A stretch of 10,712 nt of DNA from Eubacterium sp. (GTDB lineage Bacteria; Bacillota; Clostridia; Oscillospirales; Acutalibacteraceae). The position numbers and the translations under genes are program-made. Positions 6,194-8,348 of the stretch are shown here, one piece after another. The stretch covers positions 1 through 10,712 of the forward strand of contig JAFYGD010000008.1 in the NCBI GenBank assembly GCA_017543415.1, given 5' to 3'. Under the pieces are notes generated by a model, which was not told the DNA's origin, did no database searches, and saw nothing but the letters and a program-made list of their open reading frames with translations. Position 1 is the first letter of the stretch, and every line of letters begins with the position of its first letter.

Positions 6194-6226
6194 TTGGGAG
6201 AGCCTTCGTAAAGAAGGTTCTCCCAA
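6194..6226 (+). terminator. Strong hairpin after the lipid kinase gene, possible terminator
   Basis: TTGGGAGAGCCTTC (6194-6207) pairs with GAAGGTTCTCCCAA (6213-6226), 14 bp with one G-T pair and loop GTAAA. No proper T-tract follows on the plus strand (TTAAATTAATCC); on the minus strand TGTTTTTTG follows. It may end the operon or be the first arm of the nested-hairpin element behind it. Confidence 0.5.
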
Positions 6227-6228
6227 TT

Positions 6229-6404
6229 AAATTAATCCTTGCGGATTAGTGAAATATTCTTTCAGAATATGAAATTGCTTCGCAATGAAATACGCCTGCG
6301 GCGTATGTAGGATTAATTTGATTTCATATTGAGCACAGCGAGATATTTCACAATTTGCTCTGGCAAATTATTTCATATTGCGCAGCAATATTTCATTAAT
6401 GAAA
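6229..6404. repeat. Nested multi-hairpin palindromic element
   Basis: A compact array of small perfect hairpins. A closing stem AAATTAATCCT (6229-6239) / AGGATTAATTT (6309-6319) encloses ATATTCT-TTC-AGAATAT (6254-6270), ATTGC-TTC-GCAAT (6274-6286) and ATACGCC-TGC-GGCGTAT (6290-6306), each separated by GAAAT. The second half has AATTTGC-TCTG-GCAAATT (6352-6369) and ATATTGC-GCA-GCAATAT (6375-6391), separated by ATTTC, the complement of the first-half spacer, and ends in the palindrome TTTCATTAATGAAA (6391-6404). The mirrored spacers mean the two halves can also pair with each other. No coding frame explains it. I recall similar GAAAT-separated hairpin arrays between genes in gut Clostridia, so it is probably a dispersed repeat; a MITE-like origin or a processed RNA are both possible. 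Confidence 0.75.
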
Positions 6405-6637: not shown

Positions 6638-7216
6638 CTAATTATTCTTTTTGTAGCATTCACCGTTATTTTTTGTGAAACATATATCCACAAACAATTC
6701 AGGATGACTTTTGCTTAATCGTCTTAACCTCGCTGCTTCATTATACAGCAGGCGAGCGTATTCTCTTCCGTTTATAGCTATTTCCTTACATTCACTTTTA
6801 CGAGATTTGTATTCAAAAGCGTTTTTATATAAACCGTGAATATATGTATTCCTTTTTGTTATCCATGCAGATAAAAACTGCTTTTTATAGAAAAAACCAT
6901 CTTTTATCTTGGAGCGTTTGAATACTTCAGGGTGCTTGTTTCTCGTTTCTTTAATACATAAAATTCTTTGAGAAATATTGACATTCTTTCTCTCACTAAA
7001 AGGCAACTCTTTATTACACGGCAAACCGAGAACGCCGCAGATTATTTCGAGTCTGCTCTCTATTGCTGCGTACTCCAAAAAGATTGCTTCCAAATAAAAA
7101 CCATTTTCGATAGCGCAATCGCACTTGTCAAAAAAGTCTTTATGCATTCTAACTTGCTCTTGCTTCAATTCTTTGTCGTCCATATAATTCTCGTCATCAC
7201 CAATCAATATCATCAT
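6638..7216 (-). CDS. Small HEPN-motif protein, putative ribonuclease
   Basis: A 192-aa, soluble, helix-rich, basic protein with no signal peptide or membrane segment. Residues 40-65 (FYLEAIFLEYAAIESRLEIICGVLG) form an amphipathic helix, and residues 122-127 read RNTYIH, which fits the HEPN motif R-[N/D]-x3-H in the expected place in a later helix. HEPN domains occur in RNA-cutting toxins, abortive-infection proteins and nucleotide-binding partners of minimal nucleotidyltransferases; which applies here cannot be told, and no nucleotidyltransferase is adjacent. The start is uncertain: ATG 7216 lies 16 nt after the stop of the upstream zinc-ribbon/TPR gene but has no clear ribosome binding site, and ATG 7183 (starting MDDKELKQ) has only a weak GAG. 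Translational coupling to the upstream gene is likely. The gene is strikingly AT-rich, like its partner, which suggests acquisition as a pair. Confidence 0.75.
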   Translation of the reverse strand: MMILIGDDENYMDDKELKQEQVRMHKDFFDKCDCAIENGFYLEAIFLEYAAIESRLEIICGVLGLPCNKELPFSERKNVNISQRILCIKETRNKHPEVFKRSKIKDGFFYKKQFLSAWITKRNTYIHGLYKNAFEYKSRKSECKEIAINGREYARLLYNEAARLRRLSKSHPELFVDICFTKNNGECYKKNN

Positions 7217-7232: not shown

Positions 7233-8126
7233 TTATATCAATCCAAGACTTTTAGCGTATGCAAACAGGCATATTCCTGCTACGATTCCAATAACAAGTA
7301 TAATAACTGCATATTTTTTAGGGCGTGCATATTGTTCCTTTTTAATTGCTTCAACATTTATTATTGGAATATTATAATTAGGCTCATATTTTTTAATTTT
7401 ATTTGCATAGGTCTTTATTATTTCTGATTCAACGTTTACGTATTCACTAATTAATCCAAATTCATTAATAATAGTTTTACTATTTTTTATAGCTTCTTCC
7501 CAAACGTTTACAGGAGTTGCATCTGCAAAGTCATCTCCAAAAACAGACACTATACTATCTCCAAAACTATAGAGAATACCATTTAAAGTTTTTGCACGTG
7601 AATAGAAAGCAGCAGTGGAGTTGCCTTGTAATAAATTTGCTTTATAATAGCTTTTTGAATAATTATATCCTATTAAAACATAAGCACACAAATCACTAGC
7701 AATATCCGCTAGACATTTCTCAACTTGTTCTTTTTCAATAACACTTGTTTTTAATAGTTGTAATGATTCTTTAACACAATTCTCTATTTTTTTACAAGCA
7801 CTTTCTATTTCTGAAATCTGCAAACTAAATAGATCAAGAAAACAAGAATAAAAACAAGCTTCCCAACTTGTTGGGTCTTTTAACAATATATCATTATAAA
7901 AACCAACAGCCTTTTCATATTCTTCATTATCTTTAGCACGTCTTGCAAGAACAAACAAATTCTTAATTGCCTCGGTATTGTCAATTGATACTTCGCCACG
8001 ATGTTCTACAACGATTTTTTCTTGAATAATCTTTGTGCCGCAGTAGTTACAAAAGCCAAACTCCCTGTTTTCATCAATCTCAACATTTGCTCCACAACTA
8101 GGACATTTAACTGGAAGCATTCCCAT
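7233..8126 (-). CDS. Zinc-ribbon/TPR protein with C-terminal membrane anchor
   Basis: A 297-aa protein. It starts with a zinc ribbon (C8-x2-C11, C26-x2-C29; KCPSCGANVEID...FCNYCGTK). Residues about 50-95 read as a TPR-like helical pair (AKDNEEYEKAVGFYNDILLKDPTSWEA), and more helical sequence follows to about 265. A single hydrophobic helix (YAVIILVIGIVAGICLFAYA) near the C-terminus leaves about six residues after it, so the protein is probably tail-anchored with the rest in the cytoplasm. Similar zinc-ribbon/TPR proteins are common and unassigned in Clostridia. The open frame extends upstream to 8240, but AAAAGGAG at 8143-8136 lies 9 nt before the ATG at 8126, and translation from there begins with the zinc ribbon. 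It is the first gene of a two-gene unit with the HEPN-motif gene and is preceded by a structured RNA with a terminator. Strongly AT-rich codon use. Confidence 0.83.
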   Translation of the reverse strand: MGMLPVKCPSCGANVEIDENREFGFCNYCGTKIIQEKIVVEHRGEVSIDNTEAIKNLFVLARRAKDNEEYEKAVGFYNDILLKDPTSWEACFYSCFLDLFSLQISEIESACKKIENCVKESLQLLKTSVIEKEQVEKCLADIASDLCAYVLIGYNYSKSYYKANLLQGNSTAAFYSRAKTLNGILYSFGDSIVSVFGDDFADATPVNVWEEAIKNSKTIINEFGLISEYVNVESEIIKTYANKIKKYEPNYNIPIINVEAIKKEQYARPKKYAVIILVIGIVAGICLFAYAKSLGLI

Positions 8127-8150
8127 ATTTTTATTCTCCTTTTCATTAAT

Positions 8151-8179
8151 AAAAAATGCGTACAGCCGAAACTGTACGC
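8151..8179 (-). terminator. Terminator/attenuator before the zinc-ribbon/TPR gene
   Basis: On the minus strand, GCGTACAG (8179-8172), loop TTTCGG, CTGTACGC (8165-8158), A, then six T (8156-8151). The ribosome binding site of the zinc-ribbon/TPR gene begins only about 8 nt further on, so genes beyond are reached only by read-through. Confidence 0.8.
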
Positions 8180-8207
8180 CAAAAACGCAGCTCCAACTGT
8201 CGCCAAA
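8163..8207 (-). repeat. Imperfect 20/21-nt direct repeat in the RNA
   Basis: On the minus strand the unit TTTGGCG-ACAGTTGGAGCTG (8207-8188) is repeated as TTTGGCG-TACAGTTTCGGCTG (8183-8163). The first copy supplies the 3' arm of stem P1; the second supplies the loop and most of the terminator stem. The RNA's 5' GCCAAA can therefore pair with either UUUGGC. Confidence 0.6.
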
Positions 8208-8319
8208 CACTTTACAACTACCACAAACAATAGTATGCAAATAAGAGCCTGCATTTTTATCAGATGATAAAAATGCACACTAATGCTTGTGGATTAAAAA
8301 TAAAGTATTTGGCACTTAC

Positions 8320-8348
8320 ATTGTAGCATAATATAATATTTATTTCAA
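8320..8348 (-). promoter_or_regulatory. Promoter of the structured RNA/zinc-ribbon-TPR/HEPN unit
   Basis: On the minus strand TTGAAA (8348-8343), 17-nt spacer, TACAAT (8325-8320), with an extended-10 TG one base before the -10. Confidence 0.82.

Follow-up and report, generated by a model that had tools for sequence, protein, structure and literature searches.

Terminating riboswitches, c-di-GMP-I/GEMM among them, combine a structured 5' leader, a pseudoknot and an intrinsic terminator with a gene directly behind, and they precede many unlike genes. The c-di-GMP-I/GEMM class occurs in many copies per genome, and its regulon includes diverse surface-related genes. The leader RNA described here lies in a stretch of 10,712 nt from a Eubacterium sp. 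genome (contig JAFYGD010000008.1, assembly GCA_017543415.1; hereafter the window). It resembles terminating riboswitches in all of these respects, but it has neither an Rfam match nor a visible antiterminator, its transcription apparently starts within the sensor stem, and it is duplicated in tandem as a whole unit, promoter included. 6S RNA provides a further point of comparison through its long interrupted hairpin, similar size and closing stem. Unlike 6S RNA, the leader RNA is present in many copies per genome, has a terminator behind it and, in most copies, a start codon, and carries a putatively pseudoknotted linker. Gut-1 RNA (RF01706) is likewise a small structured RNA of gut bacteria, and a copy lies 1.9 kb off in the window (6224–6296, plus strand; 67.6 bits, above cut-off). 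It consists, however, of three short hairpins with GUGAAAU spacers and is unrelated in sequence or structure. A sub-threshold Gut-1-like match (6421–6340, minus strand; 40.4 bits vs 50) lies in opposite orientation, 43 nt from the Gut-1 RNA.

A survey of human microbiomes listed 3161 candidate RNAs (Fremin & Bhatt 2021, PMC8040213). Judged from passages of its main text, the palindromic terminator-like class reported there is similar in kind, and its candidates may include a partial model or fragment of this leader RNA. No description of the RNA was met in the openly accessible papers covered, including main-text passages of the structured-RNA surveys PMC8040213, PMC11109978 and PMC8632094. 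A search of Rfam release 15 over the window and 38 other loci gave nothing at the RNA's position that reached the gathering threshold. The best score there in the window came from mir-1426 (25.1 bits vs 71), and neither the 6S model (RF00013) nor the T-box model matched at the RNA in any of these loci. The earlier note on this DNA had recognised no known class, and the search agrees with it. The RNA is of a familiar kind, a terminator-controlled leader, and appears to be new in class and architecture.

The element occupies the minus strand. Its promoter (8320–8348) consists of a -35 box TTGAAA (8348–8343), a 17-nt spacer with TG before the -10 box, and a -10 box TACAAT (8325–8320). The predicted transcription start, 8313, lies 7 nt past the -10 box and is the first base of P1, a 13-bp stem in the family consensus pairing (8313–8301 with 8214–8202). 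Its 5' strand (GCCAAATACTTTA, 8301–8313), assigned from fold and covariation, and its 3' strand (UAAAGUGUUUGGC, 8202–8214) enclose the remainder of the structured domain. An A/U-rich internal loop (5' side 8293–8300) separates P1 from P2, whose 5' strand (8275–8292) ends in a conserved GURUGY and whose 3' strand (8221–8238) begins with a conserved GCAUAC. By consensus, P2 comprises 17 bp, including two G-U pairs, plus one mismatch. P3, the apical hairpin AUUUUUAUC-AUCU-GAUAAAAAU (8253–8274; strands 8274–8266 and 8261–8253), carries an A/U tract that is almost invariant across the family. Directly after it comes strand X (GCAGGCUC, 8245–8252), unpaired in the consensus P1–P3 fold and the putative partner of the linker. 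This linker, GACAGUUGGAGCUGCGUUUUU, spans 21 nt (8181–8201) between P1 and the terminator, and its positions 8194–8186 are predicted to pair with strand X. The intrinsic terminator GCGUACAG-UUUCGG-CUGUACGC ends in U6 (8151–8180; hairpin 8179–8158). The features that the earlier note had read from the letters, namely the promoter, transcription predicted to begin with the opening base of the 13-bp stem, the long interrupted hairpin and the U6 terminator, are thus all present on the minus strand.

The minus strand from 8348 to 8151 reaches a minimum free energy of -68.4 kcal/mol, against -35.1 +/- 3.2 for 200 shuffled sequences (z -10.45; no shuffle as low). The single-sequence minimum reproduces the consensus pairings, except for two pairs moved from P2 to P3 at the junction. 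The plus strand (8151–8348) also folds, with a z of -6.19, as expected because the element is a near-palindrome. The fold exceeds chance in a further respect, in that the promoter-RNA-terminator unit recurs elsewhere with compensatory changes.

Related copies are widespread. Within the genus, BLAST with the window stretch (E <= 0.01) gave matches in 55 of 80 genomes, own genome included, and up to 12 matches in a single genome, no more than 9 candidates having been scored in each; copy numbers in general rest on 7 to 12 scored candidates per genome. The own genome, 68% complete, holds one full copy. Two covariance models extended the search, R1 built from 33 copies and applied at E <= 0.01 to a family sample, and R2 built from 67 copies and applied at E <= 0.001 to an order sample. 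R1 matched 119 of 398 genomes in 50 of 135 genera; R2 matched 121 of 394 genomes in 68 of 168 genera, or 19 families as counted from the listing. At the same threshold, R2 gave matches in 57 of 245 genomes of a class sample, 55 of these labelled as same class and hence from other orders. Beyond the own genome, R2 yielded no match in the phylum sample (1 of 398); the genomes listed for that sample include members of the own genome's family, order and class, none of which matched. The taxon samples overlap, and the own genome is present in each. An exact-pattern scan returned 93 stretches (80 loci given), mostly from metagenome-assembled genomes titled Eubacterium, Ruminococcaceae, Oscillospiraceae or Clostridia, with one Clostridium sp. 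CAG:217. A record titled Bacteroides sp. (JAMPEQ010000001.1) holds an RNA copy typical of the clostridial family, probably through a naming or binning error. Judged from these sequence matches, the interval in the window is one copy of a leader RNA family that extends across class Clostridia, the class being taken from the record titles of relatives.

Covariation supports the P1–P3 structure decisively. Among 67 distinct copies, 95.6% of alignment cells hold standard pairs, against 36–48% when partners are slid, and 23 of 34 pairs show two-sided changes. The covariation score is 0.395, compared with 0.150 after shuffling, and none of 500 shuffles reached any of five measures. A second set, 30 distinct copies of which most come from genomes labelled with other orders, has 96.0% of cells paired and 26 of 34 pairs varying on both sides. 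These alignments were fitted to the covariance model and are biased towards it, whereas the arm-swap test is alignment-free. In that test, on 36 genus copies, replacing the P1b arm with that of another copy gave equally good pairing in 13 of 1244 cases. For P2, 83 of 1252 foreign arms were as good, a count that includes one mis-parsed row (L017, energy 100000), which voids the corresponding means. P1 itself is nearly invariant within the genus, and elsewhere it changes with compensation, as in GCCAAACA/UGUUUGGC, GCGACACAA/UUGUGUCGC, GCUACACAA/UUGUGUAGC and ACCACACAA/UUGUGUGGU. The correlation of P1 and P2 lengths was left unused, as the parser merges helices and parsed 120 of 145 copies. The absence of covarying homologues, or conservation of a coding frame in place of the stems, had been named as grounds for abandoning the RNA. 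The homologues covary in both sets and in the arm swaps; no conserved frame was noticed, and copy length ranges from 126 to 183 nt.

The position of the RNA relative to transcription and translation signals is similarly regular. A terminator follows it in 172 of 175 distinct copies, a total that leaves out three weak antisense matches. In 128 of 175 copies, a Shine-Dalgarno sequence and start codon lie within 60 nt past the U-run, an arrangement seen in 475 of 3000 random windows drawn from the same loci; the remaining 47 copies lack the pair within that distance by the pattern used. The median distance from U-run to start codon is 21 nt, which leaves no room for another promoter. A promoter score of 9 or more out of 12 was obtained for 154 of 173 copies, and the distance from the -10 box to model position 1 is exactly 5 nt in 141 of 173. 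For the first 120 copies, a promoter is present at 85.8%, compared with 3.5% of shuffled upstream sequences. An open reading frame of at least 50 aa begins within 260 nt downstream in 113 of the first 122 copies; the nine others are explained by contig ends, decayed or missing genes, or a next gene further off. In the window, the Shine-Dalgarno sequence (8142–8136) and the start codon (8126) of the controlled gene directly follow the terminator, so that the RNA is read as a leader and not as a separate gene ahead of an operon. Of the two options left by the earlier note, a dedicated RNA gene or a regulatory leader, the second is upheld by the gene directly behind the terminator, and the stand-alone gene is not. 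A covarying structured domain in the 5' leader and an intrinsic terminator between that domain and the start codon give the locus two of the features expected of a riboswitch or terminator-controlled leader. The promoter is strong and constant, which would place regulation at the leader. Attenuation through a leader peptide was considered and seems unlikely, since transcription apparently begins within P1. In eight loci (L010, L011, L013, L016, L017, L018, L023 and L036), a conserved block resembling TACAAATCCTATGCTCGCTACAGTCTGTGACATAT lies just upstream of the -35 box; it is perhaps an activator site or the trace of a duplication.

A further pairing, missed in the earlier note, would join strand X after P3 to the linker before the terminator. 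It is supported by compensatory variants and conserved complementarity. In the consensus, X plus the P3 3' strand (AAAAAUGCAUGCUC) can base-pair with the linker sequence GAGC[U]AUGCGUUUUU. In 141 parsed copies (4 of 145 unparsed), the mean energy of the X-linker duplex is -15.6 kcal/mol, which shuffling of X raises to -7.2, and in the same copies the linker shows no excess pairing with the P2 3' strand (-8.0 vs -7.8 kcal/mol shuffled). Compensating X/linker variants include ACUC/GAGU, UCUC/GAGA, GCUUC/GAAGC and ACAGGCUUCU/AGAAGuCCUGU. In 14 copies read as lacking GCUC in X, one of them (L154) mis-parsed, the own linker pairs better than swapped linkers, a result reached by 14 of 5000 permutations. 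An A at the first base of X goes with U in the linker in 9 of 11 parsed copies, and a G goes with C in 120, U in 22 and A in 5 of 147; here 14 of 175 copies are unparsed, and L097 and L209, marked unpaired, are visibly mis-parsed. The two strands are nearly invariant in most copies, and for this reason variation leaves the pairing untested there. Foreign linkers were as good as the own linker in 559 of 1184 cases among genus copies. Over 118 copies (4 of 122 unparsed), own linkers scored -11.39 and others -10.97, a small difference that 3 of 5000 permutations reached. A few variant copies pair poorly, for example L108 at -5.5.

Since P1 and P2 both sit between the two strands, X-linker pairing would form a pseudoknot if these stems stay folded. 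The linker also repeats, in its U5, the U5 of P3 and can therefore in principle displace P3, which suggests an exchange of strands in which linker U5 and P3 U5 would compete for the A5 of P3. Pairing of X with the terminator region shows a slight excess (-9.5 vs -7.7 kcal/mol shuffled), and the X-linker pairing abuts the terminator without overlapping its arm. No classical antiterminator is visible, because the terminator arm lacks a strong conserved complement upstream.

The genes behind the RNA are diverse and often encode surface proteins, along with amidases and lipoproteins. BspA-type leucine-rich repeats are the commonest domain (12 of 93 proteins). By a crude classifier, 51 of 104 downstream proteins are exported, against 37 of 325 controls, a rough comparison in which controls have at least 120 aa, downstream genes are taken from 50 aa and related downstream genes are not collapsed. 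In four loci (L228, L234, L237 and L239), copies precede a small protein of 79 aa that looks AbrB-like by eye and has a C-terminal zinc ribbon; it is a possible regulator within the regulon. The type III toxin-antitoxin system ToxIN is an unlikely model, because the downstream genes are diverse. An association with an upstream avd or four-helix-bundle gene was dropped, the motif being near 3 of 122 copies.

In the window, the controlled gene encodes a zinc-ribbon/TPR-like protein of 297 aa (7233–8126, minus strand; Shine-Dalgarno sequence 8136–8142), with weak zinc-ribbon Pfam matches below cut-off. Of 30 homologue loci, own locus included, 8 have the RNA immediately in front of the gene, and the seven closest homologues are among the eight. 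This gene is a genuine partner of the RNA, though not an exclusive one. The second gene (6638–7216, minus strand) encodes a HEPN-like protein of 192 aa, for which Foldseek with the structural model gave a best E of 0.55. It has no match in 79 congeneric genomes (1 of 80 with the own genome), although 54 of those 79 have RNA matches. A PADLOC scan of 93 downstream proteins gave scattered matches, with one HTH model represented by three members and 23 models by one each. The idea of an RNA-based accessory or defence unit built around the HEPN gene was dropped on these counts: a gene found in 1 of 80 genus genomes does not form a conserved unit with the RNA. The HEPN-like gene is probably co-transcribed here, and it is incidental to the conserved unit.

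Cyclic di-GMP was considered as the general signal. Among genus genomes, a GGDEF match occurs in 17 of 55 with the RNA and 5 of 25 without it (Fisher p 0.42), and none was found in 11 RNA-bearing genomes that are at least 90% complete and have at least three RNA matches. This signal is unlikely, because 38 of 55 RNA-bearing genus genomes lack a GGDEF match and there is no association. The diversity of downstream genes is itself too great to name a ligand.

We interpret the RNA as a new riboswitch-like class of attenuator, a cis-acting leader whose terminator would gate read-through in response to a signal, and assign this reading a probability of roughly two in three. Structure, distribution and position are observed; the regulation, its direction and the sensing are proposed from them. 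The strong, near-consensus promoter would start the transcript at the first base of P1, as its position suggests, and the nascent RNA would fold into a P1-P2-P3 rod. Strand X would then pair with the linker as a pseudoknot, which could migrate into P3 as linker U5 competes with P3 U5 for A5. By default, RNA polymerase would stop at the terminator and release an RNA of ~163 nt. A signal, be it a metabolite, an ion or a protein, would on being bound or missed shift the state of pseudoknot and P3 and permit read-through into the gene. Many copies per genome would bring a regulon made up largely of surface and accessory genes under the control of a single signal. Several observations count against this reading. 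No classical antiterminator links the pseudoknot to the terminator, X and linker vary too little to probe their pairing in most copies, and the diverse regulon points to no ligand. Some copies lack a gene close behind, 47 of 175 lack the Shine-Dalgarno sequence and start codon within 60 nt, and tandem arrays repeat promoter, RNA and terminator and not an aptamer within one leader, an arrangement unexpected for a simple riboswitch.

Seven such arrays of two to four copies were compared, and each unit has its own promoter and terminator. Mean identity between units is 0.61 for the arms, 0.79 for the promoter and 0.87 for linker plus terminator; between random copies it is 0.60/0.59, 0.62 and 0.76, respectively. 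The arms within arrays are thus as diverged as those of random copies. One array (L241, G032:C60, positions 466–1412) holds four complete RNA units in tandem, spaced 265–267 nt apart; the gene after it looks by eye like a PIN/NYN-type nuclease. One genome carries two identical copies 930 nt apart (L236, 2001–2148 and 2931–3078), apparently a fresh duplication.

Duplication of complete transcription units with diverged stems would suit a stand-alone noncoding RNA gene, 6S-like or a trans-acting sRNA, in which the ~163-nt product is functional and the gene behind lives on leaky read-through. Transcription that began with the first paired base and ended at a dedicated terminator would yield a compact and protected molecule, and copies persist where the gene has decayed or is absent. 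A free RNA gene, however, need not precede genes at all, let alone a set enriched in exported proteins, and yet 128 of 175 copies have a Shine-Dalgarno sequence and start codon within 60 nt behind them. Together with the finding that no Rfam family, 6S included, matches at the RNA, this makes the stand-alone gene unlikely. Strong sequence conservation in and after P3 would also be compatible with a leader that, once bound to RNA polymerase, causes the enzyme to disregard the terminator immediately downstream, for which phage HK022 put RNA and the LoaP/EAR elements are models. The variable terminator sequence, with no strong conserved complement upstream, fits such a terminator-indifferent mechanism. 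This proposal leaves the signal input unexplained, we know of no polymerase-modifying element of this structure, and we regard it as improbable.

The many dispersed and tandem copies and the long near-palindrome could instead be those of a mobile promoter-terminator cassette, MITE-like or similar to integron attC sites, that folds for transposition and spreads for its own sake. The P1 ends GCCAAA/TTTGGC presumably resemble attC core sites. In a phage collection, 2 of 50,697 records match, MT835845.1 and MT837627.1, both titled Bacteriophage sp. and from human faeces. The second carries HTH, integrase-like and replication-like genes by eye and may be an integrative element, but the genes of the first mark it as a bacterial contig. 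Viral contigs, scanned twice with an exact pattern, gave no match, nor did plasmids, and no cassette-style gene arrays were seen in the loci read. A cassette of this type is also at odds with arms that differ freely and yet remain complementary (13 of 1244 foreign P1b arms as good) and with a promoter, and mostly a start codon too, at fixed distances. It is the least probable of the explanations weighed here.

The riboswitch-like attenuator can be extended to a broader picture, which we put forward tentatively and at somewhat below even odds. The RNA would be a class-wide, previously undescribed sensor of riboswitch type, in which a pseudoknot that exchanges strands with the apical A/U hairpin takes the place of a classical antiterminator. 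In gut Clostridia, most of them uncultured, it would tie many surface-protein and accessory genes in each genome to one intracellular signal, having spread and diversified as complete promoter-sensor-terminator units. The leader RNA also offers a handle for annotating many unnamed genes. If the proposed regulation is true, it would represent a cis-regulatory RNA class that is abundant in gut and rumen Clostridia and as yet uncharacterised, and a directly testable switch of unusual architecture. It would also link a signal to the surface proteome, including BspA-type repeats, amidases and lipoproteins, of organisms known mostly from metagenomes.
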